NCBI RefSeq assembly: GCF_016107535.1
Contig: NZ_JABASQ010000004.1
Span: 124,001-188,000 of the forward strand
DNA length: 64,000 nucleotides
Source: Psychrobacter cibarius
GTDB lineage: Bacteria > Pseudomonadota > Gammaproteobacteria > Pseudomonadales > Moraxellaceae
Direction: 5' to 3'
Below, one piece after another: positions 41,259-60,364 of this stretch (the first letter of the stretch is position 1; every line of letters begins with the position of its first letter). A model generated the notes under the pieces. That model was not told the DNA's origin and did no database searches. It saw only the letters and a program-made list of their open reading frames with translations. The translations under genes and the position numbers were made by a program.

Positions 41259-41984
41259 TTGACTTCCACTGACGGAATTACAAGGGCTGACGATGACTTA
41301 TGCAAGAAGTCTAATGATGATGCGGTAAAAGTAGAGATATACGAAAGTGCTGATGGACAGACTCGGATTGAGATTCGCTTAGAGCATGATACTTTGTGGC
41401 TCTCACAAGCACAATTAGCCACACTGTTTGAAAAGGACTCTGACACGATTGGTTTGCACCTAAAAAACATCTATAAAGAAGGCGAACTCGACCCCGAAGC
41501 AACTACCGAGCAATCCTCGGTAGTTCGTAAAGAGGGAAACCGACAAGTGCGACGCAACATTCGCTTTTACAATCTAGATGCCATTATTTCTGTGGGTTAT
41601 CGGGTTAATTCTAAAAAAGGCACGCAGTTTCGTATATGGGCGACCCAGCGCTTACGTGAGTACTTGGTGAAAGGATATACGCTTAACCAACAGCGCCTTG
41701 ATAAAAACTCCAATGAATTGCAGCAAGCGTTAAACCTTATCAGAAAGACAGCTCAAAGCCCTGAGTTGAATACCAATGAAGGGCGCGGCCTGATTGAAAT
41801 AATCAGTCGCTATACACAGACGTTTTTGTGGTTACAGCGCTATGACGTTCAAATCGAGACGTTTGAGCTGAGTGTGAGTAACAAGGTTCATAACAATGTC
41901 TATGCTTATCTGAATGGTGATACCACCTTTGCACGTGATGATAAAGACAGCTCAGTACAGTTAGGCTTACAATATCAATTTTAA
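41259..41984 (+). pseudogene. RhuM-like N terminus fused to an outer-membrane protein C terminus
   Basis: Residues about 25-195 match RhuM/virulence-protein family sequence (ADGQTRIEIRLEHDTLWLSQAQLATLF, KNIYKEGELD, YNLDAIISVGYRVNSKKGTQFRIWA, LREYLVKGYTL). The family should continue to about 330 residues. Instead, after LWLQRYD the sequence becomes ETFELSVSNKVHNNVYAYLNGDTTF and ends SSVQLGLQYQF, an alternating pattern with terminal Phe typical of the last strands of an outer-membrane barrel. There is no signal peptide. The only usable start is TTG 41259. The simplest reading is a deletion that joined two genes. Confidence 0.6.
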
Positions 41985-42009
41985 AACATAATGTATGGAT
42001 GACAGTCTG

Positions 42010-42046
42010 CGCCGCTCAGTAATGTATTTATGAGCGGCGTTTTTTA
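42010..42046 (+). terminator. terminator after the chimeric gene
   Basis: A 9-bp GC-rich stem CGCCGCTCA ... TGAGCGGCG with a T6 run. It fits the original 3' end of an outer-membrane protein gene. Confidence 0.88.
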
Positions 42047-42146
42047 TACATTTTAATATAGTAATTATCATGGCGTGCTACTGGTTATCGCTATAATATA
42101 CGTAGAACGGCTGGCCTATATACTAAGAAGAATAGGGATAAAGTGT

Positions 42147-42890
42147 ATGTTTGACATCATAAAAGACTGGCGCGAGCAGCGCATATTGGACAACAGTGAG
42201 TTTACTCATGCTGACTGGCTGCAAGCGGCTCAGCGTATTGTGATACTTGATCGGTTAAATGAGGACGAGCTAACACGCTTGTTTGAGCTGGCGACGCTGT
42301 TTTTGGCGGATAAGTCAATCACGGGCGCACAAGGTTTTGAGATTAGCGATACGGTGCGGCAATCCATCGCCTTGCAAGCTTGCTTGCCTATCTTAAACCT
42401 TAGCCTTGAGTGGTATGCTGGCTGGTCAGCCATTATTATTTATCCTAGTTCCTACAAGAGCGAAACCACCACTGTCGATGAGCTGGGCATTGTCCATGAG
42501 GGCAGTCAGCACCGTAGCGGCGAAGCATGGCTGCGCGGCCCCGTTATTCTGTCGTGGAAGGATGCCAAACACTCAGGGGAGCGCGACGGTCATAATGTCG
42601 TCATTCATGAGTTTGTGCATAAACTTGATATGTTAAATGGTCGTGCCAACGGCTTTCCACCGCTACAAGTGGATATGAATCCTGCGCGCTGGACTGAAAT
42701 TATGACACGAGATTTTGAGGATTTTCAAAGCCATCATAAATCAGGTCTTGATCGTTATGGCGCGACTAATCCTGCGGAGTTTTTTGCGGTACTCAGTGAG
42801 GTGTTTTTTGAGACGCCGCAAAAGCTGATCGATGCTTACCCTGATATTTACGACATAATGATGAAGTTTTTTCGCCAAACACCACTTTAA
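42147..42890 (+). CDS. mtfA: zinc metallopeptidase MtfA
   Basis: This encodes 247 residues from ATG 42147. MtfA (Mlc titration factor) is a cytosolic gluzincin. The zinc motif is HEFVH (His154, Glu155, His158), with a downstream Glu in NPAEFFAVLSEVFFE. Family marks are GAQGFEISDTVRQSIALQACLPIL and GPVILSWKDAKHSG. E. coli MtfA binds the repressor Mlc and affects sugar PTS expression; whether Mlc exists here is unknown. It is a single gene followed by a terminator. Confidence 0.92.
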   Translation: MFDIIKDWREQRILDNSEFTHADWLQAAQRIVILDRLNEDELTRLFELATLFLADKSITGAQGFEISDTVRQSIALQACLPILNLSLEWYAGWSAIIIYPSSYKSETTTVDELGIVHEGSQHRSGEAWLRGPVILSWKDAKHSGERDGHNVVIHEFVHKLDMLNGRANGFPPLQVDMNPARWTEIMTRDFEDFQSHHKSGLDRYGATNPAEFFAVLSEVFFETPQKLIDAYPDIYDIMMKFFRQTPL

Positions 42891-42952
42891 TCAAAATCAT
42901 TAATAGTCACTATTAATGTTCGATAATGAATATATAGGCATGAAAAAGCAAT

Positions 42953-42994
42953 AAAAAAGGGCAGTGCATAGGTTTTATGACACCGCCTTTTTTT
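42953..42994. terminator. bidirectional terminator between mtfA and lipoprotein gene
   Basis: AAAAAAGGGCAGTG pairs imperfectly with CACCGCCTTTTTTT around a 14-base loop, with runs on both sides. A second palindrome (CATTAATAGT-C-ACTATTAATG) lies at 42898-42918. Confidence 0.7.
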
Positions 42995-43039
42995 TGCTTA
43001 TTTTTCATTTAAGTCTATGTTTTTATAGATAAAAATTAT

Positions 43040-43705
43040 TTAAGTTGTCCATTGCTCATTCACAATAGCGACCAAATAGCGTTTACCTTGATATTCTTCA
43101 AACACTAAACGCATGATACGCCAATCCATACCGGAATATTCCTCTGAGCCTTTATGATAAAACTCGACAACCTCTGAATTGGGATAAATTTTCTTTAGGT
43201 TGTTAATCATATTCCCACTGTGTTGGAACTCATTAATACTGATATTGGCATTGTTAAATTGGCTAGCATCAATCCACGTGTCTAAATATGTAGGTAGTGG
43301 CGTGACGAGTAGATCGCCCGTACCGTCTTTTTCACCCCAAGTAAAACGAATTTTGGACTGTTGCAAATATTGGGCGAATTGTTCACGGCTAAAGACTTTA
43401 TCCGTCTCAGGACGCACATAGGCATACATCGAAAAACGGACGCCACGGGTCGGATGAATATCATTGGTGATGCGAGCGAAGTCTTTATTCGCAAGCGCGC
43501 GCTGAATACGTAAGGCTTGCTGCTTAAGGGTTTGCTGACTGATATCGGAGACAACGGGCGTTGATGAATGGCCGTTAGATTGATTTGGAGTGGCTATATT
43601 GGATTCAGCAGAAGATTGACAGCCAGTTGCTGCTAGCGCCAAAGCCAATGCGCCGCCAACGGTTAATTTAGATGAACGGTCTTTGAAAGTAGATAATAGG
43701 GTCAT
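43040..43705 (-). CDS. putative lipoprotein of unknown function
   Basis: This encodes 221 residues with signal VGGALALALAATGC (lipobox AATGC, Cys about residue 29). A Ser/Asn-rich linker follows, then a soluble domain containing IHPTRGVRFSMYAYV, YLDTWIDASQFNNANISINEF and a late WRIMRLVFEEYQGKRYLVAIVNEQWT. I have seen this domain pattern in uncharacterised proteins of many bacteria but cannot name a function. It is a single gene, transcribed toward mtfA. Confidence 0.75.
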   Translation of the reverse strand: MTLLSTFKDRSSKLTVGGALALALAATGCQSSAESNIATPNQSNGHSSTPVVSDISQQTLKQQALRIQRALANKDFARITNDIHPTRGVRFSMYAYVRPETDKVFSREQFAQYLQQSKIRFTWGEKDGTGDLLVTPLPTYLDTWIDASQFNNANISINEFQHSGNMINNLKKIYPNSEVVEFYHKGSEEYSGMDWRIMRLVFEEYQGKRYLVAIVNEQWTT

Positions 43706-43928
43706 GAAGCATCCTTATCGCAGTGGTTTTCGAAATATACGTTACTGTGAATATAATTGGGCAAATTTCACAAGATTACTAAGCAAAAATTTATTATTTA
43801 AAAGTTATTAAGTAATAGATCGTTTTTAGTAGATAAACCGGAATGATACGATAATACAGCAGAGTCATAATATGGTTATGATGTAATGGTTTATAACACT
43901 TATATCATTGAAGCTCGTAGAGAACGCC

Positions 43929-44414
43929 ATGCCAACACATTATTCACTGACGCTGCTAGCTATGGGACTGATAGCAACCAATTTTGCTATAGCTGATATA
44001 GCAGAGTCAACTCAGACTTATGCAGCCATAAAAATAGCGACCATTAGCAACATGTATCAGCAAGACGTCAACAATCAAGGCATGGATAATCCGGTCGTAT
44101 TGCAACAGTATGCCGACCCAGATCTACAAGCCGCGATGCAGATTGAGCAAGACTATTTTGATAGAGAGCAAATATCTTGTCATGTTGATTATGATGTATT
44201 GTGGGATTCGCAAGATCCTGATTATACCCAAGACAAACAGTTTTCGATGACTGACCAAGGATTGGTGCAAGTGAGTTTGGCACATGGCAGCAATGTTTAT
44301 TATGAGTTGTCATGTAATGGTACCGATGACGATGCTAATTGCCGAGTGGCAGATGTGATTTTAGATGAAGATGGCAAGTCTTTTCGCAAGCATTTACTAG
44401 AAACCTGTCGCTAG
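43929..44414 (+). CDS. small exported protein of unknown function
   Basis: This encodes 161 residues from ATG 43929 (MPTHYSLTLLAMGLIA), with a signal peptide likely cleaved after ADIA or nearby. The mature part is acidic with four Cys (two likely disulfides): SCHVDYDV, ELSCNGTDDDANCRV and ETCR at the end. No family is recognised. It is the last gene before the gene-poor terminus region; a short hairpin AATGCT-G-AGCATT follows the stop and leads into a T-rich tract. Confidence 0.65.
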   Translation: MPTHYSLTLLAMGLIATNFAIADIAESTQTYAAIKIATISNMYQQDVNNQGMDNPVVLQQYADPDLQAAMQIEQDYFDREQISCHVDYDVLWDSQDPDYTQDKQFSMTDQGLVQVSLAHGSNVYYELSCNGTDDDANCRVADVILDEDGKSFRKHLLETCR

Positions 44415-44553
44415 CCAATGCTGAGCATTATTTTTATTGATACCTAAATATAAAAAGTTATAAACCCTGAATAAAAATCACAGAAATAATCATGAGAGCT
44501 TATAAATGGCACTGTATAAAACTATGAGCCTAACTTCTAAAGCCATTGGTTTG

Positions 44554-44581
44554 TTTTCGCATAATGTATATTATGTTAAAC
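44554..44581. other. dif: dif chromosome-dimer resolution site (XerC/XerD)
   Basis: The 28-mer has an 11-base XerC arm TTTTCGCATAA, a 6-base centre TGTATA and an 11-base XerD arm TTATGTTAAAC. It matches the E. coli dif (from memory) at 23 of 28 positions, with 22 in a row (GCATAATGTATATTATGTTAAA). XerCD recombine here, under FtsK, to resolve chromosome dimers. It marks the replication terminus, which fits the surrounding gene desert. The differences are only in the outer ends of the arms, as expected between genera. Confidence 0.93.
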
Positions 44582-44866
44582 TAGAGCTACCGTACAATAA
44601 GTTCATGGGATTATGATTATATGATAAACCCTTATTAAGGTTGGTTGATGATTGATTAATTCTCATACGTACTAACTATTCATAAAGTCATCTTCATTAA
44701 CACTGATACAGTTACTAGCTAAGCTTTCTTAAGGAGTCAATGTACAGAGCTATCACTGATCCTATTATATTTGTAATCGAGCTTAACGTATTGAGCCATG
44801 TCGCTAGTTAACCTATTTGATAAACTTGTTCTACTCATCATTGTTAAGTTTACTACCTTCATACGG

Positions 44867-44952
44867 CACAATAATCCCTCTGAATAATCTGCCATTCCTA
44901 ATCATCACCTAATCACCAAATTACTCATCAATCGATTGTTGGTAGCTTAGCC
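44867..44952. repeat. diverged direct repeat, left copy
   Basis: About 86 bases from CACAATAATCCCT to GATTGTTGGTAGCTTAGCC align with 47055-47141 at roughly 70-75% by eye, same orientation. The copies bracket the integrase gene. See the finding on this pair. Confidence 0.7.
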
Positions 44953-45503
44953 GACTTCCTCATTAATGCGAATGTGCTTGAACTACGTTAGGTACAGAAA
45001 TATTCGCCACCAAGTGACAATCTCAAAATAGAAGCAATAACCTCTCTGGATGACTATTACTCTATATCATTGATAAAAACGTATACAAGCTCTGACAATG
45101 ATCCTATTTGGCATCTCAGTGAGTCCAAGTCTAGATACACCTTATAGCTGCTATTATCATAGCTAACCAAGTTGTAATACGTTTTTATTGAGAGTCACCG
45201 AAAAAGCCTTTTCAGATTAGTACAATATTCATTGGTCTTTTCTAGCTTCTCTTGCTCTTTCTGAAATATCTTAATCTAAAGCATTGAGTTGATACCTTCC
45301 AAATTTGCACAGAACAGCACTATCACCCTGATTAAGGTATTCTGTGCGAGTACAGGAGCACGGTTTTTCGTGCAAGTATGTCAAAGGACTCTATTGCCAA
45401 TAGCAAACAGCACTCTTACTTTTAATCTATGTGAAGTTTATTCCTTCAAACGCCATATATATCAACAAAAAAAATAGCTTACTCCTTCTTTCTCCACTAT
45501 ACT

Positions 45504-45538
45504 ATAATCATCCCCAAGTGAAGGTTGGGGATGATTAT
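45504..45538. terminator. strong hairpin upstream of the integrase gene
   Basis: A 14-bp perfect stem ATAATCATCCCCAA ... TTGGGGATGATTAT with a 7-base loop. No clear gene ends here, so it may be a relic terminator or a recombination-related structure. Confidence 0.6.
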
Positions 45539-45735
45539 ACTTTAAAACCTTTCATTTAAAGGGTTTTGCAAAATAACTAATGAATAACAGTGTCCATGTT
45601 AGTGTCCAATAGCTATCTGTATTTCTCAGAAGACGCTTTTCAAGATTTATAAAACGTGCGCAAAGATTGCTCTAAATCTAAGTATAGAGTTAATAGATTA
45701 ACATTCACAATTTACCTAGCTTATAAAACTGACGG

Positions 45736-47013
45736 ATGTACATCATGACTGTCGATAATTTAAATGATATCAATAAACTTGAATGCCGAGATAAAGATTA
45801 CTCGGTCAGTGTCTCAGGTATCGCGGGTTTAAGTATTCGTACTTATCCAAATGGTAAAAAGGAATACTACTTACGGTACGCTCATCCGCATATCGATGGT
45901 AAGCGCCCTAGAATGATGTTAGGTAAGGTCGAAGATGTCAGTCTATATGAAGCTAAGTATAAAGCAGAAACTATACTTAGCACGGTCGCACAAGGCTCCG
46001 ACCCTAAAGCCATTCATAAAAAAGAACAAGTCAATAAGTATGCTCATCTAAAGAACGCCACATTTTCTGAAATCACACAAGCGTGGCGAGATCACAAAAC
46101 GTCAAGTCGTCACCATAGTAAATCTAGAAAGCGCGCGTTTAGTGACTCAACCCTTAAATTTTGGGATTTATGTCTAGGATATATGTGTCGTGAGATTGGC
46201 GACTTAAGAATGAACGATATCACAAGCGAGATGATATTGAGTGTATGTGAGGCGATTCAAAACAATGAAAATCAAGCAACCTTCGTTGGTGCAAGCACTA
46301 GGCTTTATACCGAAAAAGTCTTCTCATTTGCTGTTGCAAGAGGATTATGCGATAGAAATGTAGCTATTGATACACGTGGCGAGCTCGCACCTGCCAGTTC
46401 AGGCAACCACTTACCAGCCATTACCAAGCCTGATCAGTTTGCTACCCTCCTGAACGATATGTCCCATTTCAAAGGTGCAAGTAAAACCACATTAGAAGCG
46501 ATGAATTTACTACCGTATGTCTTTGTGCGTAGTATCGATTTGCGGTCTATGCGTTGGCAAGATATAGATTGGGATAATAAGCTATGGGAGTTTTCTCCTA
46601 CTAAAGGCGAAGGTCGTGATGACATGGTATCTCATTTAGTTGTACCACTAGCCACTCAAGTAATTGAGCGCTTACGAAAAATACAAGCAATCACAGGTCA
46701 CAAAGAACATGTATTTGCATCGATACGTGTCTCAAGCAATCCTTATATTAGCAAAGCAACACTAGTACAAATATTTCATAGGCTTGGCTACAAAGATGTG
46801 CAATGCGCTCATGGATTTCGAGCATCAGCTAAAACCTTACTTATGGAGCAACCTGAGTTGCGTTATTCAGATATCGTGACCGAGCTGCAATTAGGACATC
46901 GAATAAAGGATACGCATGGCGGCGCTTATAACCGATTAGATGAAATTGATACTCGAATACTGATGATGCAAGATTGGGCTGATTATATAGATAAGCTCCG
47001 GGGTTCAACGTAA
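45736..47013 (+). CDS. tyrosine recombinase / integrase
   Basis: This encodes 425 residues of the P4-type phage integrase group. The N-terminal DUF4102-like arm-binding domain contains GLSIRTYPNGKKEYYLRYAHP. Catalytic residues: Arg in YVFVRSIDLRSMRW, His-x-x-Arg in HGFRASAKTL, His in LQLGHRIKDTHGG and the nucleophile Tyr in GAYNRLDE. All look present. The start is ATG 45736 or 45745, with a weak ribosome site. No other mobile-element genes accompany it. It lies 1.2 kb from dif between two diverged direct repeats, so it may be the remnant of an integrated element. Confidence 0.9.
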   Translation: MYIMTVDNLNDINKLECRDKDYSVSVSGIAGLSIRTYPNGKKEYYLRYAHPHIDGKRPRMMLGKVEDVSLYEAKYKAETILSTVAQGSDPKAIHKKEQVNKYAHLKNATFSEITQAWRDHKTSSRHHSKSRKRAFSDSTLKFWDLCLGYMCREIGDLRMNDITSEMILSVCEAIQNNENQATFVGASTRLYTEKVFSFAVARGLCDRNVAIDTRGELAPASSGNHLPAITKPDQFATLLNDMSHFKGASKTTLEAMNLLPYVFVRSIDLRSMRWQDIDWDNKLWEFSPTKGEGRDDMVSHLVVPLATQVIERLRKIQAITGHKEHVFASIRVSSNPYISKATLVQIFHRLGYKDVQCAHGFRASAKTLLMEQPELRYSDIVTELQLGHRIKDTHGGAYNRLDEIDTRILMMQDWADYIDKLRGST

Positions 47014-47054
47014 TACTTACTTTACGTTAATAATATACCTATTAGCATTCACAA

Positions 47055-47141
47055 TGCACAATAAGCCCTTTGCATAGCATCTCATTCCCAGTCATCACAT
47101 AACAACCAAAACACCCTAACATTCTATTGTTGGTAGCCTAG
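47055..47141. repeat. diverged direct repeat, right copy
   Basis: The sequence from CACAATAAGCCCT to CTATTGTTGGTAGCCTAG aligns with the copy at 44867-44952 in the same orientation. The best-kept blocks are CACAATAA, TCATCAC and ATTGTTGGTAGC. Confidence 0.7.
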
Positions 47142-47259: not shown

Positions 47260-48402
47260 TTAATTATCCAGTTTTACCAAACAGTCAGAATTAATATCAG
47301 CAATCGTTTTGGCACCAGTCAAGGTCATTGCGACGCGTATTTCTTTATCTAGCAGTTCTAACAAATTGCTTACCCCTGCACCGCCATCCGCTGCTAAAGC
47401 ATAAATAAAAGCGCGCCCTAGCATGCAAATATCAGCGCCCAAAGCCAACATACGCACAATATCTAAGCCATTACGTATGCCAGAGTCGGCTAAAATTTTA
47501 ATCTCTCCTTTAACCGCATCGGCAATAGGAGGCAGCGCCCGTGCACTGGATAAAACACCGTCCAGTTGTCGCCCACCATGATTGGATACGACTATGCCGT
47601 CTGCCCCAAAACGCACCGCATCTTTGGCATCTTCTGGGTCCAAAATACCTTTGATGACCATAGGCCCATCCCAGTACTCGCGAATCCAATCTAAATCTTT
47701 CCAAGAAATAGAGGGGTCAAAGTTATTACCTAGCCAGCCTATATAGTCTTCCAATCCTGTTGTCTTGCCTAAATAAGTAGAGATATTACCCAGATCGTGC
47801 GGACGGCCATTCAGTCCTACATCCCATGCCCATTGCGGATGCATCACAGACTGGAAGTAACGGCGCATAGCGGCATTTTTACCGCTCATACCAGAGTGCA
47901 TATCTCGGTAGCGTGCCCCTGGTACCGGCATATCCACCGTGAAAACCAAGGTCGAACACCCCGCCGCTTTGGCACGCTCCAAGGCATTTTTCATAAAACC
48001 TCGGTCCTTTAATACGTAAAGCTGAAACCACATTGGACGGTTAATTTTAGGCACTACTTCCTCAATCGGACAAACCGAAACTGTCGACATGGTAAACGGA
48101 ATGCCTTTTTGATCGGCTGCCATAGCGGCCTGCACTTCTCCGCGGCGGGCATACATACCTGTCAGACCTACGGGTGACAACGCGACAGGCATAGACAGAG
48201 TTTCATTAAATAACTGCGTCTCGAGACTAAGCTGTGACATATCATTCAGTACACGTTGTCTAAGGGCAATTTTTGATAAATCTTCAACATTATGTTTTAA
48301 GGTATATTCCTCATAAGCACCGCCATCTATATAATGAAATAGAAATGGTGGCAGTCGGCGCTTGGCAGCAGCCCTGTAGTCGTTTGGAGATGAAATAATC
48401 AT
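47260..48402 (-). CDS. lldD: L-lactate dehydrogenase (quinone, FMN) LldD
   Basis: FMN-dependent membrane-associated enzyme that oxidises L-lactate to pyruvate. It has 380 residues, the E. coli length. The active-site and FMN motifs are [12 protein letters not shown] (catalytic His), [35 protein letters not shown] and [21 protein letters not shown]. It is the third gene of the leftward lldP-dld-lldD cluster, 127 bases after dld, so it may be cotranscribed. Confidence 0.95.
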
Positions 48403-48529: not shown

Positions 48530-50302
48530 TTACAAACAGCACGAGCAGTTACGTTTGGTTTTTGACATTTTACCGATGCCGGGATTAAAGCTATTGGTTG
48601 GGTCTAGACTTTTATAGAAATTCTGCAAATCAGGCTCTGCTTCGTATAGATGACCGACATTATGCTCAGCAGGATATTTGGCTCCGCGTGCGCTCAATAG
48701 CTCTAACATCATCTTTTTAACAAGCTTGGCATCACTGCCCTTCTTTAATATATAGTCTTGATGAAACACATAACAAAAGAAATGTCCGTAATACAGCTTC
48801 TTTTCTAAGTGTTTTTCAATGTCTTCAGGCAAGCTTTCAAGCCACTCTAGCTCGTTACGTGGTATGGCAATATCCAGCGCTAATATCTCACCGACCTCTT
48901 TTTCATGTATAACTTCATAGCGTAATGCGGCACCGGCTGCGGCAAAACGATTTAAAAGCGCGCTTTCTGATTCTTCCTGACTACATTCAAAATAGTTACC
49001 CGTGTCCGACGCATCAAAAAACGTCTTCAGAAAATCTTGAGCCTCTGCTATACCTTCATCACTCATTTTTATGATGAGGTGATGCTCGTATTGATTACGG
49101 TACTCCATCATGCGCTTGGGCAAATGCTTTGGAAATAGAGTAGCGATAAACTGCATGACTTTGTCAGTGAAATGCTTTGGCATCCATGACCACTTATGAA
49201 ATTTTGCATCCATAGCGCCTTTGATAGAGAACAGTCTAGGTAAAGCATTTGTACCGAGATGCTTGATACTCAAGAACGTGTCTTTACCGTATTTAGCGGA
49301 GACATCAAATATATCACGATGCATATACTCGCCCACTTCAGGGATATTGTCGAAGCGGGATAGTATCTGTCTTCTGAGCTGTGCAAGCTCACTCACACTG
49401 TTGGTGCCTATGTAGAAAGTTTGCTCTTTTGCCGCTATTGGATAAGTGTCAAGACGTACTGCAAATACGGCAAGCTTGCCAGCACAGCCGCTTGCTTCAT
49501 ACAGTCTGCGCTTGTCCGCATTAAAGCGACTGGGCGTGCTTGCATCAACATCTTTTACTCGGGCGATGTACTCTCTGTCAGATGCGAGCTTACCAGTGTC
49601 AGGTAATTCTCTTCTATCAAAATGACCGTTTTGCAAATTCGTTAATATTTCTTCAGGAGTATCACCCAACTTGACGTCTAGATGATTGACTAGCACCAGT
49701 TGACCGTGTTCATTTATTTGGGCAAACAATGCAAGCTCGGTGTAAGCAGGCCCTCTTTTAACCAGAGCTCCACCAGAGTTATTAGATATACCACCAATAA
49801 TAGACGCACCTAACGTCGAGGAACCGATGACAGAGTGAGGCGCTCTATTGACAGCATTAAGCTGACTTTGCAACTGATGCAATGTCGCCCCAGACAAGCT
49901 AATCACTTGCTCGCCATCATTCACCAAATACAACTGGTTTATGGCAAGCGTATTAATCACCACAACGGGTCTATCGTAGTCATTACCGCTTGGTGTTGAG
50001 CCTTCAGTCAGGCCTGTTTTTGCCGCTTGCATAATGATAATACAGTCGCCTTCAACGCACACTTCTAGGCTACGCCAAATGTCCAGCAATGTTTGCGGAA
50101 ACAAAACCGCTAAGGCACTGCCGCCACCAGAGCGCCACCCCATTCTATAGTGCTCATTTTTCTCTGGATCAGCTTGTACATTACTCGCGCCTAGCAAGTT
50201 GGTTAGTTTATCTAACACCTGATCAGGACTAAGCATGCCTTGAGAAGCTTGATTTGACGAAGATATATGACGCTCCTTATCTTGTAATGGTGTGTCACTC
50301 AT
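48530..50302 (-). CDS. dld: D-lactate dehydrogenase (quinone) Dld
   Basis: FAD-dependent respiratory enzyme oxidising D-lactate at the inner membrane, 590 residues. The FAD-binding PCMH domain carries IIIMQAAKTGLTEGSTPSG and GSSTLGASIIGGISNNSGG. The C-terminal membrane-binding cap contains KWSWMPKHFTDKVMQF and AEHNVGHLY. The last residues are KRNCSCCL, a Cys-rich end that is unusual. Its ATG overlaps the lldP stop by four bases (ATGA), so it is translationally coupled to the permease. Confidence 0.94.
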   Translation of the reverse strand: MSDTPLQDKERHISSSNQASQGMLSPDQVLDKLTNLLGASNVQADPEKNEHYRMGWRSGGGSALAVLFPQTLLDIWRSLEVCVEGDCIIIMQAAKTGLTEGSTPSGNDYDRPVVVINTLAINQLYLVNDGEQVISLSGATLHQLQSQLNAVNRAPHSVIGSSTLGASIIGGISNNSGGALVKRGPAYTELALFAQINEHGQLVLVNHLDVKLGDTPEEILTNLQNGHFDRRELPDTGKLASDREYIARVKDVDASTPSRFNADKRRLYEASGCAGKLAVFAVRLDTYPIAAKEQTFYIGTNSVSELAQLRRQILSRFDNIPEVGEYMHRDIFDVSAKYGKDTFLSIKHLGTNALPRLFSIKGAMDAKFHKWSWMPKHFTDKVMQFIATLFPKHLPKRMMEYRNQYEHHLIIKMSDEGIAEAQDFLKTFFDASDTGNYFECSQEESESALLNRFAAAGAALRYEVIHEKEVGEILALDIAIPRNELEWLESLPEDIEKHLEKKLYYGHFFCYVFHQDYILKKGSDAKLVKKMMLELLSARGAKYPAEHNVGHLYEAEPDLQNFYKSLDPTNSFNPGIGKMSKTKRNCSCCL

Positions 50303-52005
50303 GATGCCAAGGGACCTTGAAAACCAAAAATATAAATGGCGGCCATGACGATGATGCCACAGAACAACACATAGTATATGGTGGGTAAAATAGTACGCCT
50401 AAGTGTGGCGCCCTCCATACCAAGTAAACCCACCGTTGCTGATGCAGCCACCACGTTATGTATGGCAACCATATTACCGGCTGCGGCACCAACCGCTTGC
50501 GCTGCGATGATTAGAGAAGGTGAAATATGTAAGCTCATGGCGGCTTCATATTGGAATTGACTGAACATCATATTAGATACGGTATTAGAGCCTGCGATAA
50601 ATGCACCTAAAGCACCAATGGTTGCACTAATCAATGGAAAAACATTGCCAAAAGTACCTGAAAACAACTCTGCACTGGCGACTGGCATACTCGCCACATC
50701 TGATAAGTTTATGCCTGAATTAATAAAAATTCTAACCATTGGAATCGTAAAGATAAGTACAAAACCTGCCCCTAACACAGTCTTACCTGATTCTTTAAAG
50801 GCACTGTTTAGTGCGCTGACGGGCTTTCTAGTTTGAAAAGCGGCGGCAACCAAAGCACTAATTAGTAACAAGCCGCCCGGTAAGTATAAAGGACTAAAAC
50901 TGGCACTGATATCTGTCTCACCTAAAATCGAGGTTAGGTCTACTGCTACACTGTTAAGTAAAGACTGAAAGCCTGTAAATACTCTTGAAAACACCAGTAA
51001 AAGGGCAACCAATAAATAAGGGAACCACGCCATAAGGGTGGACATCTTCTTATCACTCAAGGTTAGCGTAATATCTTCTTTACTGACCACTAACTTACCA
51101 AGCCATTCACTCGGCCAGTTTTTTTGCGGTTCAAAATCCCATGTGGTTTTTGGTACCAAAAACCCTCTTTTAGCAGCATTAACAACGACAGTAATACTGA
51201 CCAAGCCACCGACCAGTGACGGAAACTCTGGCCCTAAAAAAACACCGGTTATCATATAAGGGATTGTAAATGCCAAGCCTGCAAAAATTGCAAACGGCCA
51301 AATCGCAAAGCCTTCCCGCCAGCTTTTGTTTTTACCAAAGAAGCGAGTGAGCATCATCACCATAAAAAGTGGCATAAACGTACCAATGACACCGTGAATA
51401 ATGGCGACTTGACTGGTAATCAGTTGTAAAAATTCGCCCCACTGTACTCCTTGTTGTGCCAGTTGAGCACTAATGGCAGCTTTATCTAACCCATCATTTA
51501 CCCCTATCACAATAGGCGTACCGACCGCACCAAATGATACAGGTGTACTTTGTATCATCATTCCCATCAACACCGCACCCAGCGCCGGAAATCCTACTGC
51601 CACCAGCAAAGGCGCTGCAATAGCGGCAGCTGTACCAAAACCAGAGGCGCCCTCAAGAAAGCAACCAAAGCACCATGCAATAATAATGGCTTGCACACGC
51701 CTATCTGGCGATACATTAGTAAACCCAGCACGGATAACGGCGATTGCACCAGTATGTTTTAATGTATTCAACAAAAAAATAGCACCAAAGACTATCCACA
51801 ATACCGAAACCGTAATGACCAAACCCTGAATAATAGATGATGACACTCGGTTAAGCGTCATATCCCATATAAAAATGGCAAGCGCAGCGGTAACCACTAA
51901 AATGATAGGCATTGTTTTTTTAGCTGACCATTGCAAACCTATCAGAAAAATACCACAGAGAACGATTGGCAGTAATGCCAAAAGCCCATATATTGTTTGA
52001 TTCAA
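50299..52005 (-). CDS. lldP: L-lactate permease LldP
   Basis: Inner-membrane lactate/proton symporter of 568 residues with about 13 membrane segments. The LctP family blocks WCFGCFLEGASGFGTAAAIAAPLLV, GMMIQSTPVSFGAVGTPI and GSNTVSNMMFSQFQ are present. It is the first gene of the lactate operon and divergent from the LysR gene. The product supplies both the D- and L-lactate dehydrogenases encoded behind it. Confidence 0.95.
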   Translation of the reverse strand: MNQTIYGLLALLPIVLCGIFLIGLQWSAKKTMPIILVVTAALAIFIWDMTLNRVSSSIIQGLVITVSVLWIVFGAIFLLNTLKHTGAIAVIRAGFTNVSPDRRVQAIIIAWCFGCFLEGASGFGTAAAIAAPLLVAVGFPALGAVLMGMMIQSTPVSFGAVGTPIVIGVNDGLDKAAISAQLAQQGVQWGEFLQLITSQVAIIHGVIGTFMPLFMVMMLTRFFGKNKSWREGFAIWPFAIFAGLAFTIPYMITGVFLGPEFPSLVGGLVSITVVVNAAKRGFLVPKTTWDFEPQKNWPSEWLGKLVVSKEDITLTLSDKKMSTLMAWFPYLLVALLLVFSRVFTGFQSLLNSVAVDLTSILGETDISASFSPLYLPGGLLLISALVAAAFQTRKPVSALNSAFKESGKTVLGAGFVLIFTIPMVRIFINSGINLSDVASMPVASAELFSGTFGNVFPLISATIGALGAFIAGSNTVSNMMFSQFQYEAAMSLHISPSLIIAAQAVGAAAGNMVAIHNVVAASATVGLLGMEGATLRRTILPTIYYVLFCGIIVMAAIYIFGFQGPLAS

Positions 52006-52299: not shown

Positions 52300-53205
52300 G
52301 TGACCAAAGCTGACGACATGATTTTATTCGTTCAAGTTGTCGAAGAAGGGTCATTCTCTAGAGTCGCTGAAAAATTATCATTGACGAACTCGGTAGTGAG
52401 CAAGCGCATTGCGAGATTAGAAGAGAACTTAAATATACAACTGCTTTATAGAACCACTAGAAAGTTGAGCTTAACCGATGCAGGCAGGGCGCTTTATAAC
52501 AAAGCTAAAATTGCTAAATCCGCCTTTCAAGAAGCTGAAAATGCTGTCACGGGTTACGGCGAAGATATGAAAGGTCATATACGTATAACCATGCCTGTGG
52601 TCTCTGCGAATTTCATATTTAGCGAATCTATTGCCGAATTCTGTAAACAACACCCTGAAGTATCAGTAGAGTTACAAATTACCAATCGATTGGTTGACTT
52701 GATAGAGGAAGGATTTGATTTGGCACTAAGGACCGCTGTGCTTGAAGATTCTTCACTCATTGCAAGGCGCCTTATAGATAGCCAGTGGATTATATGCGCG
52801 ACTCCAGCCTATTTAGAGCAACATGGTGCGCCTCAAACTCCTGAACAGTTACAAAATCATGAGTGCTTGGTTTATAAGTTTGATAATACGGCTAACAGTA
52901 CATGGCCGCTATATATAGACGGCAAAGAGCAATTAATATCTGTCCATGGTCGGTTTCATAGCAATCATCTGAGTGCAATTAAACAAGCCGCGCTTAGCGA
53001 TTTAGGTATCGCTTTTTTACCACAAGTGTTGATCTATGAGGAGATACAGAAAAATACACTCACGCAGATTTTACAATGTTTTACCAGCAAGAAGCTGGGG
53101 CTATATGCGGTTTATCCTAAGGCCAGACAACCGGATCAAAAGTTAAAACTGCTCGTTGCACATTTACGAGACTCATTACATCAAAAACAGGCTTACTACT
53201 ACTAA
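52300..53205 (+). CDS. LysR-family regulator next to the lactate operon
   Basis: This encodes 301 residues. The N-terminal HTH is VVEEGSFSRVAEKLSLTNSVVSKRIARLE and the substrate-binding domain follows. It resembles the CrgA/DmlR subgroup. GTG 52300 is chosen since GGAG sits six bases upstream. Being divergent from lldP-dld-lldD, it probably controls that operon with lactate or a related acid as the signal. This is inference; E. coli uses the GntR-type LldR instead. Confidence 0.9.
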   Translation: MTKADDMILFVQVVEEGSFSRVAEKLSLTNSVVSKRIARLEENLNIQLLYRTTRKLSLTDAGRALYNKAKIAKSAFQEAENAVTGYGEDMKGHIRITMPVVSANFIFSESIAEFCKQHPEVSVELQITNRLVDLIEEGFDLALRTAVLEDSSLIARRLIDSQWIICATPAYLEQHGAPQTPEQLQNHECLVYKFDNTANSTWPLYIDGKEQLISVHGRFHSNHLSAIKQAALSDLGIAFLPQVLIYEEIQKNTLTQILQCFTSKKLGLYAVYPKARQPDQKLKLLVAHLRDSLHQKQAYYY

Positions 53206-53468: not shown

Positions 53469-55859
53469 TTAATAATCCACAGTGTAGCTCAAGCCGTAAG
53501 TTGTACCCGAGGCAGGCAAACGATTCAAATCGCCATAGGTTGTTTGATGATAGACCGTTAGATAGTCCTTATTGAGTAAGTTATAAATCCCATAGTCTAC
53601 TCGACCTACCGGCATTTTGACTTGTCCTAATACATCAAGTGTCATATAACCTGTGACTGGCAATGCGCTAGAATCAGGGTCTTTTTGTTGATCCTTAAAG
53701 GCTTTATCATCACCGCCAATTGCCAATGCTTGTAGACGTATATTACTGCCTTCATCGAAGTTGTATTGTGCAAATGCGGTGCCTTTAAGTGGTGTCAAGC
53801 GTACGGCATCCAGCTCCAACCAATCACCATCTTTATCATACTGGCCACGAGTATAGGCGACACTGCCACCCACTTGCCATTGATCATCAATATCATGGCT
53901 GAGCGAGCCTTCTACGCCGTAGACGCGCTCATCGGTATCGACGACTTCTACCGTATAGTCATTGGTAAAGCGTACCGTTTTATCTGATTCATTGTAAAAA
54001 CCGCTCAATCGTGCAGCAGTACTGCCATGCTTACCTTGCCAGCCCAACTCGTAATTGTCGATCGCAATAGGCTGTACGTTGTCTGAGTTGACGACAAAGC
54101 CTGCTCGTACATCACGTAGCGCACGCTGAATGTCAGCAGTGGTAAAGCCTTGTGAGAAATTGGCAAATACTTGGTCATTTGGGGTTAATTGATAGCTGGT
54201 ACCGATATTAAATAGGGTTTTATCGTGGTCTGTATGGCCCTTTTCCACTTGACCAGCCTGATAGTCAATGCCATAAGCATCACTGACACCGTTGATGAGA
54301 GGATCATTAAAATACTCTTCGAGCAATTGCTCATAAATGGGCGTGAAAGTAGCCGTTTCTGCTTTGAGTTTTTGATAGCGCACGCCAGCACTGGTATGCC
54401 ATTTATCAGTGATATCTATATCCGCATTGACAAAAGCGCCCCATTTATCAATGGTGGTATCTGGTCCACCATTATAGCTAAGACCATTTGGCTGAGCACT
54501 TAGACCGTTACTGGTTTTAAATTTATCTAAGTCTTGACCTTCATAAGTTTGCTCGCTTTTTTCGCGTTCAAAATCAGCCCCATAGCTAAACAGCGTTTTT
54601 TTACCACCAATTTCACTATCTGTTTGCATGGCGGCGCGTAGACCCATCACCTCAATGTCAGCTTCTGATTGAGTGACGACGACTGCCCCGCCCAGTAATT
54701 CTTTTAGCGTACTCTCATCGGTAAGGCCATTAGCCACCCAGACTTCGCCCGCTTGTGCAGGGAAAACTTTACCAGAAGGATAAAAACGGCCTTTTTCGTC
54801 TCGATAGTACCCTGTGACGCTCAAATTTGAGCCCGCAATATCATCATTATTATAGTTAAGGTTCACTGATGTTTTGGTGGTATAAGGCTCGTTTGCTACG
54901 TCAGCACCATCAATCGCTTTTAAAGATGGTGGTAATTTTTTCGGTTTTAATAATACTTGTAAATTTTTACCATAATCTGGACCGTAGTCCGTATCCTGCT
55001 CATCTTTGTAGTAAGTCACTGCCAAATCGAGACGCTGACTGTCAGTGAGCTCTATACCCAAGCTACCGTTAATACTTAGCGACTCAGTATCTTGTTGGTC
55101 AGTTTGGTTAACGTCTGGGCTGATGCGATTATCATGACTATCGAACTTGCCGCCTTTCGTTTCATAATCCACATCTAGGCGACCATAAACTCGCTCACCG
55201 CCATAGCCTAATGTCTGCCCCACATGATAACCCACTGAATCTGAGTCAAAATTACGACTGCTACTGACGCCGACTCTGGTTTGCCTGATAGAGCCATACC
55301 CCACCATAGATTTTGTGACGAGATTAATCAGACCACCAGCCGCGCCAGCCCCATAAATACTGGTCGCACCAGAGAGCACCTCTACCCGCTCAAGCTGCGA
55401 AGGGTCGATACTGTTTAGCTCGCGTGACAGGCTGCGTGAGCCACTCAATGGCACACCATTCAGCAAAAACTGCACGGGACGGCCATGCATGGTCGTGCCG
55501 TAGTTACTGGTTGAGCCACTACTTGCCCCCAAACTTGGAATCAGCTGAGCCAATATATCTCCAGTAGTACGATTGCCTGTCGCCTGCATCTGCAGCTCAT
55601 TTTCGGTAATTACCTGCGTGACGGCAGGCATCTCACTAATTTTTTGTGCCAAAGCCGTTCCTGTCCTTGCTTTAGCAGTGACCGTAATGGTATCTAAAGT
55701 CACGTTTGGTAACTCACTTGAGGCGGCGTTGACAGCTAAGTCTTCTGAAAGCATCGTATTTGAAGCGATGTCCATAGCACTGACATTGTTTTGTGCATAT
55801 AGTTGCTGGCTGATACAAAAGGTAAGAAAGGATAGAGCAACTTGATGGTGGCGTTTCAT
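53469..55859 (-). CDS. TonB-dependent siderophore receptor 1
   Basis: Outer-membrane receptor, 796 residues from ATG 55859 (MKRHHQVAL). A signal peptide (to about LYA-Q) is followed by a TonB box-like LDTITVTA, the plug domain (GDILAQLIPSLG to YGAGAAGGLINLVTK) and a 22-strand barrel ending GTTYGLSYTVDY. It resembles ferric siderophore receptors, and plug mark RPVQFLLNGVPLSGSRSL fits. The siderophore is not deducible. The upstream Fur box implies iron repression. The frame is open to 55943, but the chosen start gives a proper signal peptide. Confidence 0.92.
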   Translation of the reverse strand: MKRHHQVALSFLTFCISQQLYAQNNVSAMDIASNTMLSEDLAVNAASSELPNVTLDTITVTAKARTGTALAQKISEMPAVTQVITENELQMQATGNRTTGDILAQLIPSLGASSGSTSNYGTTMHGRPVQFLLNGVPLSGSRSLSRELNSIDPSQLERVEVLSGATSIYGAGAAGGLINLVTKSMVGYGSIRQTRVGVSSSRNFDSDSVGYHVGQTLGYGGERVYGRLDVDYETKGGKFDSHDNRISPDVNQTDQQDTESLSINGSLGIELTDSQRLDLAVTYYKDEQDTDYGPDYGKNLQVLLKPKKLPPSLKAIDGADVANEPYTTKTSVNLNYNNDDIAGSNLSVTGYYRDEKGRFYPSGKVFPAQAGEVWVANGLTDESTLKELLGGAVVVTQSEADIEVMGLRAAMQTDSEIGGKKTLFSYGADFEREKSEQTYEGQDLDKFKTSNGLSAQPNGLSYNGGPDTTIDKWGAFVNADIDITDKWHTSAGVRYQKLKAETATFTPIYEQLLEEYFNDPLINGVSDAYGIDYQAGQVEKGHTDHDKTLFNIGTSYQLTPNDQVFANFSQGFTTADIQRALRDVRAGFVVNSDNVQPIAIDNYELGWQGKHGSTAARLSGFYNESDKTVRFTNDYTVEVVDTDERVYGVEGSLSHDIDDQWQVGGSVAYTRGQYDKDGDWLELDAVRLTPLKGTAFAQYNFDEGSNIRLQALAIGGDDKAFKDQQKDPDSSALPVTGYMTLDVLGQVKMPVGRVDYGIYNLLNKDYLTVYHQTTYGDLNRLPASGTTYGLSYTVDY

Positions 55860-55947
55860 ATTCACTTCACTTAATTGGAGGATCAAAGAGTGGTAAAAGT
55901 TATATTTAGCTAATAATGCTGTGTGTACTAACTTTGTGAACAATATT

Positions 55948-56905: not shown

Positions 56906-59203
56906 TCAAAAATCCATTGTGGCTGACAGCATAAATGTACGCGGCTCACCCAAGCCAAGACTGGTATAATGCGGCTTTGCCCAATAAGCTTTATTAGTTA
57001 CGTTAGCAACACTCGTTCTTAATGTCAGCGGCTTTTTATCAATAGAGGTGGCATAACGTGCACCTAAATCATATACAGTGCGACCTGGTAATGACAGTGA
57101 GTTGCCTGCGTCAAGATATTGCTTAGATATCGAGTTTGCATTAGCTGTCAATGTCAAGTCTTGAATAAAAGGTAGATCCCATTCAACACCAAGCTTAGAC
57201 TGCCATTGTGGGACACCTGTAGCTCTATTACCCTCATTAACGCCACCAAGCGTCTTGGTTAGCTTCGCATCAATATATGAAACCCCACCCATTAGGCGTA
57301 TATCTTCAATGGGTGAGCCAAAAAACCCCCATTCAACACCTCGGTTACGCTGTTCGCCAGCATAAGAAAAGATATTACTAACAGGGTCTAAATAGCTATT
57401 AGGTTTCTCTATTTCATAAACACTTAGGGTATGTGAGAACTCACCAAGATCAAGCTTTACGCCAACTTCTTTTTGTTGCGTCTTATAAGGGGCAAACATT
57501 TCACCAGCATTTTCTGCATCTATCGGTGCAGTAGAACCTTGGCTCAAACCTTCTATATAGTTAGCATACAAAGAAACTTGATCGTTTACTTTACTTAGTA
57601 GCGCTATTGATGGCGTAGTCGCACTTTCGTTGTAATCCTTTGCTGATGCCAGCATACCTGCTTGTTTACTTTCTACCTGTTGATGTCGCAGTCCTAAAGT
57701 CAGCTGATATTTATCCTCAGCAAAAGACAGTGTGTCTGCAAGACCATAGCTGGTCAAATTCGTTTTTGTGTTCAGTAGCGCAGGAGAATTGAAGGGAATA
57801 TTACGCGACTCCCATACTGGTTTATATATGTTCGTGACCCAGTCTTCAGCTAATAAACCCCTTCTAGCACTTAAATCATAATCTTCCTGATAGTCAACGA
57901 TGTTAAATGCCAATTGATGATTAACTCGTCCTGTTTGGAATTTACTTTTTAACCCTATCTCAGCAGACTGTCTTTCGACTTCATCATCAACTTCTCCAAG
58001 GTTAGTCCGATAATCTCCTGCGGCATTGATAATCTGCGCGACAGAGGCACTCTGCGACTTAAATTTTGTTTTACTATTTCCGCCCGCACCATAAATCATT
58101 AAATCGTCAGTCACATCATATTCACCACGTATCATTAGCCCCTTATCTTCACTATCATTAAATGCCCAGCTTGGGTTCAGTAGCGTCTCTGGTTTGGGCG
58201 GCTTAGGAATCGACAATCCTGGTGCTAGGGTGAGACCGCGAGTCGGTCCATCGACACGATCTTTACTATGATAAAGATCTGTCGATAATCGAGCACGCTC
58301 TCCTTTCCAGTCCAGTGCAACAGAAGCCAGTTGCGCTTGTTTTTTTTGATCATTTACTGCACTATCACCCTCTCTATAAGCACCATTAATCCGAACACCA
58401 AACTGCTTGTCTTCACCAAAACGACGTCCTACATCCACATGCCCACCAAGTTGTGAGTCTGATAAATATCTTGCCGTCACTCGCGTCAACGGCTCATCGC
58501 CTGCTCGTTTAGGCACTAGGTTGACTGCACCGCCTACTGAGCCTTTGGGCGGCATACCATTCAATAAAGCTGAGGGCCCTTTGAGTACTTCGATACGCTC
58601 AAACATCTCAGGTGAGCTACGATAATAAGGTGCCATACCGAATAGCCCGTCTACCGTAACATCACCAACGTCTGAAGAGAATCCACGGATAGAATAACTT
58701 TCAAGATTCTGGCCACCAACCCCACTGCTAAAGACGGCAGGATCAGTAGCAGCGATGACAGCCGTAATATCGGTGGCTTGCTGATCTTCAATAAATTTAT
58801 CGGTATAGCTGATGGCACTAAACGGCGTCTCTAAAAAATCCTTATTTCCCAAGAATCCAGCGTGATTGGTATAGGTCACCTGCCCACCTGAGTAGATAGG
58901 ATTGTCGTTGCGTTCTGCCACTACTGTTATCGCAGGCAAGGTCACTGTAGGAACGTTGTTATCCTCCTCTAACGGTGGGTTTTGCGCTCCATTGCCAGAC
59001 TCAGTGGTTTGCTCACTATGTGTCACATTACTATTTGTCTGTGCATACGCTGATGGCATACAGATGAATACCGTCCCAGCGACTAGGCTCAAAGACATGG
59101 CAAGTCTTGCTGATACGATATAATTGAGCGCGAAAGAAGGTTTGGTCAGTGTCGCCCGCTGTTTGACCCTATTTTTATGATCTAAGTGTTGAAGTTGGTG
59201 CAT
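56906..59203 (-). CDS. TonB-dependent siderophore receptor 2
   Basis: Outer-membrane receptor of 765 residues from ATG 59203 (MHQLQHLDHKN; GAGGA upstream). An extended signal region ends at AYAQ. The TonB-box region is VTLPAITVVAE, and the plug runs from DITAVIAATDPAVFSSG through RGFSSDVGDVTVDGLFGMAPYY to GSVGGAVNLVPKRA; the barrel ends PRTFMLSATMDF, with terminal Phe. It is the FhuA/FhuE/FpvA type of ferric-siderophore receptor. A Fur box is 50 bases upstream. It is the outer-membrane partner most likely served by the ABC importer genes behind it. Confidence 0.92.
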   Translation of the reverse strand: MHQLQHLDHKNRVKQRATLTKPSFALNYIVSARLAMSLSLVAGTVFICMPSAYAQTNSNVTHSEQTTESGNGAQNPPLEEDNNVPTVTLPAITVVAERNDNPIYSGGQVTYTNHAGFLGNKDFLETPFSAISYTDKFIEDQQATDITAVIAATDPAVFSSGVGGQNLESYSIRGFSSDVGDVTVDGLFGMAPYYRSSPEMFERIEVLKGPSALLNGMPPKGSVGGAVNLVPKRAGDEPLTRVTARYLSDSQLGGHVDVGRRFGEDKQFGVRINGAYREGDSAVNDQKKQAQLASVALDWKGERARLSTDLYHSKDRVDGPTRGLTLAPGLSIPKPPKPETLLNPSWAFNDSEDKGLMIRGEYDVTDDLMIYGAGGNSKTKFKSQSASVAQIINAAGDYRTNLGEVDDEVERQSAEIGLKSKFQTGRVNHQLAFNIVDYQEDYDLSARRGLLAEDWVTNIYKPVWESRNIPFNSPALLNTKTNLTSYGLADTLSFAEDKYQLTLGLRHQQVESKQAGMLASAKDYNESATTPSIALLSKVNDQVSLYANYIEGLSQGSTAPIDAENAGEMFAPYKTQQKEVGVKLDLGEFSHTLSVYEIEKPNSYLDPVSNIFSYAGEQRNRGVEWGFFGSPIEDIRLMGGVSYIDAKLTKTLGGVNEGNRATGVPQWQSKLGVEWDLPFIQDLTLTANANSISKQYLDAGNSLSLPGRTVYDLGARYATSIDKKPLTLRTSVANVTNKAYWAKPHYTSLGLGEPRTFMLSATMDF

Positions 59204-59252
59204 GGAAACGTCCTCTTGTTTTGATGGAAAATAATAATGCGAATAAAAACAC

Positions 59253-59271
59253 AAATGATAATCATTAACAA
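59253..59271. promoter_or_regulatory. Fur box upstream of receptor 2
   Basis: AAATGATAATCATTAACAA closely matches the Fur consensus. It lies 50 bases upstream of the receptor start and just after the binding-protein gene. Confidence 0.85.
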
Positions 59272-59377: not shown

Positions 59378-60364
59378 CTAGGACGTTGGCTGATAGCCTT
59401 TGAGGACATCGTCCATTATGATGTTTAATGAGGTTGGGCTAGCGGCTGCTATATACCACGCATCTGCATCAACAAAAACAACACGACCATTTTTCCATGC
59501 TGTTGTTTGACGAAGTAAAGGGTTGCTCACATCATCAGGATTGATAATAGCGCGATGCTCCATGACAGCGGTACGGTCTACAATATAAAGAATGTCTGGA
59601 TCTGCCTGCTGTATAAACTCACTAGAAATCGGCTGTCCATGTAGGCTGGTCTCTACAATCGTACTCGCAGGCTTGACACCCAAGTCATTAAAGATAAAAC
59701 CATAGCGTGATTGCAGCCCAAAATTGCTAAAAGCCCCATTATTGTGTAAGACAACCAGTGCTTTTTCTGAGCGGTTTTTTGTGAAGTCCTGAACCTCTTT
59801 GACTCTTGCATCTAACTGCGTGGCTTTTTGTTCTGCCAATGCCTCTTTATCAAAAATACGACCTAGAGTTAATAAGTGGCTTTTAACACTGGCTATATGC
59901 TGCTGACTGTTATTAAAATTCACATCGAAATGCAGAGTCGGTGCAATCTCTGACAGCTCTTGATAGTTAGCGGCGTGAAGCGGGGTCATTAAAATCAGAT
60001 CAGGATGTAGCGCATGGATACGTTCCATATTTGGCTGAACAATAGCGCCCAAGTCCTCTACTGCGGCATCCGCTTTGTACTGCGAAAGAAAGTGCGGAAT
60101 ATAGTCTTTGACCATTCCTGCAATCGGAACATCGAGCTGATCCAAAAAATCAGCTTCATTCATATCCAGTACCGCGACGCGTTGCGGTCGAGTATTGATG
60201 ACAGTAGTACCAAGCTCATGCTTGATCGTGATGGGCGTCTCAAGTTTTTGTGACGCGTGTGCTGGCTCATTTGTCAGCTCAGTAGATTTTTTTTCGCATC
60301 CTTGTAATGATACGGCGGCCGACATGACCAGTATCCAAACCCAATCTCTCTTACTCAAATTCAT
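59378..60364 (-). CDS. siderophore ABC transporter binding lipoprotein (FatB/CeuE-like)
   Basis: This encodes 328 residues from ATG 60364, overlapping the ATPase stop (ATGA). The signal ends in a lipobox SLQGC (Cys about residue 23). The fold is the class III binding protein: RPQRVAVLDMNEADFLDQL, DYIPHFLSQY, EDLGAIVQPNMERIHALHPDLIL, and GRVVFVDADAWYIAAASPTSL. The group includes FatB, CeuE, VctP and YclQ, which bind catecholate or mixed siderophores. It is the last gene of the importer operon. Exact ligand unknown. Confidence 0.9.
   Translation of the reverse strand: MNLSKRDWVWILVMSAAVSLQGCEKKSTELTNEPAHASQKLETPITIKHELGTTVINTRPQRVAVLDMNEADFLDQLDVPIAGMVKDYIPHFLSQYKADAAVEDLGAIVQPNMERIHALHPDLILMTPLHAANYQELSEIAPTLHFDVNFNNSQQHIASVKSHLLTLGRIFDKEALAEQKATQLDARVKEVQDFTKNRSEKALVVLHNNGAFSNFGLQSRYGFIFNDLGVKPASTIVETSLHGQPISSEFIQQADPDILYIVDRTAVMEHRAIINPDDVSNPLLRQTTAWKNGRVVFVDADAWYIAAASPTSLNIIMDDVLKGYQPTS

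Follow-up and report, generated by a model that had tools for sequence, protein, structure and literature searches.

The chromosomal dif site as the probable attachment site of integrase-bearing islands in Psychrobacter

The window, a stretch of 64,000 nucleotides (64 kb) from a draft contig of Psychrobacter cibarius, contains a dif-like site followed on its right by an integrase gene and by genes for lactate use and iron uptake. The features are as follows.

44554-44581, + strand: dif, with XerC arm TTTTCGCATAA, centre TGTATA and XerD arm TTATGTTAAAC
44575-44580, + strand: GTTAAA, dif positions 22-27, the inferred exchange region, common to island left ends and right-end scars
44588-44605, + strand: putative left end of the island, TACC-N9-GTTCA, mirroring the right-end motif TGAAC-N9-GGTA
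45736-47013, + strand: tyrosine integrase (int), 425 aa (Pfam Arm-DNA-bind_3, Phage_int_M and Phage_integrase)
47260-48402, - strand: cargo, FMN-dependent dehydrogenase of the L-lactate dehydrogenase type (lldD; Pfam FMN_dh)
48530-50302, - strand: cargo, D-lactate dehydrogenase type (dld; Pfam Lact-deh-memb)
50299-52005, - strand: cargo, lactate permease (Pfam Lactate_perm)
52300-53205, + strand: cargo, LysR regulator (Pfam)
53469-55943, - strand: cargo, TonB-dependent receptor (Pfam)
56906-59254, - strand: cargo, TonB-dependent receptor (Pfam)
59378-63019, - strand: cargo, Fec-type importer with binding protein, ATPase and two FecCD permeases (Pfam Peripla_BP_2, ABC_tran and FecCD twice)
63357-63959, - strand: cargo, AraC-type regulator (Pfam)

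The sequence at 44554-44581 has the layout of proteobacterial dif, two 11-bp arms around a 6-bp centre, and we assume that the arm names can be carried over from E. coli dif. The initial annotation had called the site a near-exact match to E. coli dif with 23 of 28 identical bases; the near-exact match stands, but a recount against the E. coli sequence gives 24/28. As that annotation had also described, dif lies in a gene desert. It is non-coding; the ORF before it ends at 44414, the next one starts at 45736, and no ORF longer than 62 aa was found between dif and int (44582-45735). When the 3.24-Mb draft genome (78 contigs) was searched with the dif core pattern and a free 6-base centre, a single exact match was obtained. 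The runners-up carried 2 mismatches in the 16 fixed bases and lacked the dif centre, and matches with up to 3 mismatches numbered 42, versus 65 for a reversed control pattern. A second dif-like 28-mer, for which a search had been suggested, was thus not found in the draft with this core pattern. Across the genus the site is present in 104 of 105 genomes and single in 103, the exceptions being G039, which has none, and G081 (77% complete), which has two.

An imperfect palindrome resembling AARCCRTTGGTTTG adjoins dif on the XerC side (44540-44553). A loose pattern of it fits 28 of 32 distinct left flanks and most of the others nearly, and it is missing from G010 (L020). It is a possible protein-binding site.

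Within the window, GC skew calculated in 4-kb steps was mostly positive left of ~44 kb, with three slightly negative values, and negative in every step from 44001 on. The sign change at ~44-46 kb and the maximum of the cumulative value in the interval 42001-46000 agree with a terminus at this point of the draft genome. The octamer GGGNAGGG, which we take from E. coli to be the FtsK signal of Psychrobacter as well, occurs on the 217-kb contig six times on the + strand and never on the - strand left of dif, and twice on the - strand and never on the + strand to its right. All 8 copies are therefore directed towards dif, displaying the strand switch for which a check had been proposed. The lone octamer GGGCAGGG cited earlier at position 1064 is really present, but one occurrence against 2.07 expected in the window is not above chance, so it proves nothing for dif.

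A relative assembled as one contig (G090) was sampled in 20 stretches. Its skew was positive left and negative right of dif, with two exceptions of +0.018 each: the 19 kb that adjoin dif on its right, and the final sample at 3.04 Mb, which is presumably beyond the origin. GGGNAGGG was distributed there as 7 copies on + and none on - left of dif, none on + and 10 on - to the right up to 2.74 Mb, and one on + and none on - in the last sample. The 19-kb stretch that adjoins dif on the right in this genome (L210) has the skew sign of the other replichore, as a recent insert would show. The P. cibarius genome encodes XerD above the NCBIfam cut-off and a XerC homologue of 296.8 bits, which falls under the model cut-off of 335, a strict threshold passed by only 2 of 14 control genomes.

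The single dif, the skew flip, the octamer polarity, the pattern in G090 and the presence of XerD and a XerC homologue back the initial placement of the replication terminus inside the window. The 28-mer could alternatively be fortuitous, or a decayed secondary dif with the terminus elsewhere, since unassembled sequence of a draft in 78 contigs could hide another copy. We ruled out a chance match on the single core match in the genome and the conservation of the site throughout the genus; with the skew switch and the octamer polarity added, this explanation is hardly credible. Judged by its sequence, 44554-44581 is the chromosome's true, ordinary dif.

Relatives of int were collected by a scan of named genomes in which the best 80 of 258 stretches were kept, corresponding to 78 loci. 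Among these best matches, 52 loci (L040-L091) belong to Psychrobacter and are 78-98% identical to int, and 26 (L092-L117) are distant, at 29-34%. Outside the genus, five of 299 family genomes match int at E up to 1e-60, with only 36-38% identity. The dif-linked integrases form one group with a support of 100 in a quick tree that carries a long-branch warning. The gene is intact in 50 of 53 cases (broken in L084, L087 and L091), and R265 or R270, K290, H359, R362, H388 and Y398, which we take by their motifs to be the catalytic set, are invariant in all 50 intact relatives. dN/dS against the int of the window was 0.03-0.12 in 47 of 49 comparisons with a computable dS, many dS values exceeding 1; by this measure int is under purifying selection.

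To relate the integrases to dif we compared 69 clade integrase places in 63 genomes, taking rows of 76-100% identity and broken pieces of the clade (merged, or counted once each) and leaving out rows of 35-43%. For 56 of the 69 dif is on the same contig, and all 56 integrases are right of dif and share its orientation, 38 at a distance of 1,042-1,233 bp and 18 at 1.46-60 kb; the other 13 are on contigs that lack dif. The integrase had initially been put down to the general character of terminus DNA. Its position is better accounted for in another way, namely because dif appears to serve as its attachment site.

The ~1.15 kb between dif and int (44582-45735) are unusually long for an integrase. 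The part from 45289 to 45735 is kept in most relatives, and a 20-bp inverted repeat lies at 45498-45544. A direct repeat (44858-44950 and 47048-47141, 75-86% alike in two blocks) brackets int, and several relatives have matching copies; recombination between the copies could delete the gene. G082 contains dif, lactate cargo and a scar of the kind described below, and is without a clade integrase.

Between genomes the left side of dif aligns and the right side differs. We surveyed 20 regions of ~20 kb, each running rightward from dif, and met a core block, whose genes were named by eye (a LysR gene, an NRAMP-like transporter and prp-type genes), in 12 of them. The block starts 2.2 to 16.5 kb from dif in these regions, with differing genes in between, and one further region touches its edge at 19.8 kb. 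In the P. cibarius genome the LysR gene of the core block lies 22.8 kb right of dif, past the window. With the left side aligned, the right side variable and the core block at that distance, the island of the window begins at dif. Both this position and the one-sidedness can be read from the sequences.

What the far end of an island looks like is suggested by loci with no dif nearby. In five of these (L041, L042, L045, L071 and L074) a GTGAACCTAACTTTAGGTACGCATAAGTTAAA-like sequence stands in the place of dif and is followed by an island left end. This scar has the form TTTA(A/G)GTA..CATA(A/T)GTTAAA, and a search of the genus found it in more genomes. In all 8 genomes that combine dif and a scar of no more than 2 mismatches on one contig (G018, G021, G066, G070, G075, G082, G099 and G102), the scar lies right of dif and on the same strand, 4.2-75 kb away. 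Directly behind 9 of 17 distinct scars we found the left end of another island (score 35-60, versus 17-18 for shuffled sequence). For three others, comparison with the dif flank of a genome with no clade integrase at dif gave a score slightly above the control; one scored slightly above it against an island left end, and for four no sequence was recognisable behind the scar.

Island left and right ends are mirror images around GTTAAA. The motif GAAC-N9-RGTA-N7-GTTAAA is present in all 12 distinct scar left parts (TGAAC in 11), and N7-TAYY follows GTTAAA in 26 of 29 distinct left ends; the outer RTTCA was seen in 14 of these 29 and is absent from 15. Base 28 of dif tracks the island end, being C with TARRGSTACC (10/10) and G with GGACGGTACC (2/2), and hence appears to come from the island. 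Together with the mirrored ends, this tracking points to an exchange within GTTAAA. A complete dif was present at the left junction in 29/29 distinct cases, which had been selected by the dif pattern. On these junctions, integration seems to restore its target, as in tRNA/tmRNA-type islands.

These junctions bear on whether host XerC and XerD integrate the islands at dif, with the integrase as incidental cargo. Such integrative mobile elements exploiting Xer (IMEX) are well documented at dif in the available parts of two accounts (PMC2731167, PMC5357621), and the right-end scar has CGCATAA-like letters beside GTTAAA, similar to dif arms. However, had Xer recombined at the dif centre, the right junction should have kept the complete XerD arm TTATGTTAAA of the chromosome, and a search allowing up to 2 mismatches, 700-1,800 bp upstream of int, returned the exact arm in 0/22 loci; the zero in the 12 collected scars follows from the pattern used to collect them and carries no weight. 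The right-end scars contain neither the dif centre nor a complete XerD arm. They are not hybrid dif sites, which argues against a hijacking of Xer. Moreover, in 103 of the 104 dif-bearing genomes of the genus only one site has both inner arms, and the integrase is conserved at a near-constant distance from dif. The absence of the exact arm upstream of int in the 22 loci led us to reject Xer-mediated integration, and we regard this explanation of the islands as unlikely.

Exchange of int between strains was apparent from sequence identities. In four locus pairs int DNA is 99.9-100% identical and the 2.5-kb left flanks are 72-73% identical. Among 284 locus pairs, from which those with short alignments were left out, similarity was higher in int than in the flank by 8 points or more in 63 pairs, and higher in the flank by that margin in 19. 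These 19 pairs, like the near-constant distance and orientation of 38 of the 69 integrases, would be expected if int were an old, vertically inherited chromosomal gene beside dif and the variable DNA had come otherwise. Against such a resident gene stand the buried integrase copies up to 60 kb from dif, the scars joined to left ends of other islands, the identical int genes of strains with dissimilar flanks, and genomes of the genus with no integrase match. A purely vertical neighbour in its simple form is refuted by the joins of scars to left ends and by the exchange of int, and the explanation as a whole is very improbable. Displaced scars, buried copies and the exchange of int between strains, all legible in the assemblies, instead indicate island integration within GTTAAA.

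We propose, with a probability of roughly 80%, that dif is also the attachment site (attB) of Psychrobacter islands that encode a tyrosine integrase of their own. In circular form, an island would have the symmetric site TGAAC-N9-GGTA-N7-GTTAAA-N7-TACC-N9-GTTCA, as obtained by placing both ends together. The integrase would align the GTTAAA of the island with positions 22-27 of dif and carry out the strand exchange within these bases. On the left, the junction would then retain the whole of dif, with base 28 from the island; on the right, the old flank would come to lie behind a right-end scar having neither the dif centre nor a complete XerD arm. Since the insertion leaves dif intact, the next island could enter at the same spot, always on its XerD side and with the same orientation, and islands would stack; each insertion would push older islands away from dif, leaving the youngest nearest to it. 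We infer catalysis by the clade integrase, the age order of the islands and their manner of travel from these patterns. Neither excision nor a circular island was seen in the assemblies, where circular forms cannot show.

For the island of the window, the cargo on this annotation is lactate and iron-uptake genes. A candidate right end lies 1.3 kb past the window at positions 189281-189301 of contig C44, with 5/20 mismatches to the scar; the whole contig holds two such 5/20 matches on both strands and none better. Homology to the right flank of a relative starts 47 bp beyond the candidate end, and the stretch in between is unlike the native flanks observed. Among 13 island proteins run against Pfam there was no transfer protein, and the one AlpA-type protein of the genome is encoded on another contig. 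An Rfam search of the 64-kb window gave no match at the gathering threshold, and no tRNA or tmRNA gene was found there. Left of dif, the ORF at 41259-41984 covers no more than the opening third of a RhuM-type domain (profile positions 1-86 of 252), continues in an unrelated tail, and looks truncated or fused.

The surroundings of more distant integrases suggest where this use of dif came from. Around the 26 distant integrases, drawn from the best 80 of 258 stretches, a tmRNA (13) or tRNA (8) gene ends at most 300 bp upstream on the same strand in 21; one more has a tRNA gene 705 bp away, and two of the remaining four are too near the contig start. A search around these 26 for dif-like cores, tolerating up to 5 mismatches, gave a single match, in L110, with 5 mismatches. 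Twelve of 16 chosen nearer paralogues from the 299-genome family sample adjoin a tRNA gene. The four nearest to the dif clade (L246, L242, L244 and L247; support 90 in the quick tree) have no tRNA gene beside them. L246 lies behind the apparent 3' end of a surA-like gene and a terminator-like hairpin. As the distant relatives mostly stand behind tmRNA or tRNA genes, a target switch from RNA genes to dif, perhaps via another target, would be the simplest reading.

Comparison with known systems is based on the available parts of the cited papers. Dimer resolution by dif and XerCD in Proteobacteria (PMC2731167) uses the same single, non-coding 28-bp site at a skew switch, together with Xer homologues; the site itself is no different in Psychrobacter, and what is added is its apparent use by an island-borne integrase. 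The IMEX, including filamentous prophages and the gonococcal island (PMC5357621) and LME-1 of Legionella (PMC9765430), likewise insert at dif and keep a working dif on one side. IMEX use host Xer, whereas the Psychrobacter islands have a conserved integrase of their own under selection, exchange that appears to take place on the outer edge of the XerD arm, and a non-dif scar; neither the lack of an own recombinase nor Xer-type junctions on both sides applies to them. Tailless prophages at Vibrio dif (PMC11630473) are also integrase-bearing elements, and the acting recombinase was left open there. Those elements are phages, in contrast to the cargo islands of Psychrobacter, whose junctions point to their own integrase.

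Islands in tRNA and tmRNA genes (Islander; PMC4383910) share the arm-binding tyrosine integrase near one end, a restored target and the possibility of stacking. An arm-binding domain is present in int, but dif takes the place of an RNA gene as target, the exchange region comprises only ~6 shared bases, and int lies ~1.15 kb from the junction. The Psychrobacter islands would work like target-restoring tRNA islands at dif, and two defining features of IMEX do not apply to them. Within the same family, the pdif and chromosomal dif modules of Acinetobacter (PMC6449649, PMC12907356) also tie cargo to dif-type sites. These modules are Xer-dependent and lie between many sites, whereas nearly all Psychrobacter genomes have one dif; in the available part of the 2019 paper of this pair, the Psychrobacter plasmids under study lacked pdif sites. 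The literature consulted, in the parts available, describes Xer-driven insertion at dif, and puts at 14.2% the share of dif sites that adjoin an insertion sequence or a gene for a transposase or integrase (PMC2731167, PMC5357621, PMC11630473, PMC6449649, PMC12907356, PMC4383910, PMC10111431, PMC9765430). No integrase-driven island family at Psychrobacter dif appeared in the literature searched, which comprised titles and abstract openings and included few subscription journals. The unreported part is the integrase islands beside dif; dif itself is ordinary.

Elements at dif are usually put down to hijacked XerCD, and the 2024 Vibrio prophage study (PMC11630473), as far as its available text goes, left open whether integrases of dif-integrated elements act themselves. 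The Psychrobacter islands provide junction evidence for an own integrase using dif, and they illustrate insertion that does not destroy an important site. It is about an even bet that one clade of integrases of the tRNA/tmRNA type has adopted dif as its target and employs the XerD half of the site as a core arm of its own. Host dimer resolution and island integration would then depend on the same stretch of DNA, with possible competition between them, and the terminus of the genus would be a one-sided, age-ordered stack of exchangeable cargo. The order of insertion would be readable from island position, and the terminus would be a predictable place for recently acquired Psychrobacter genes.
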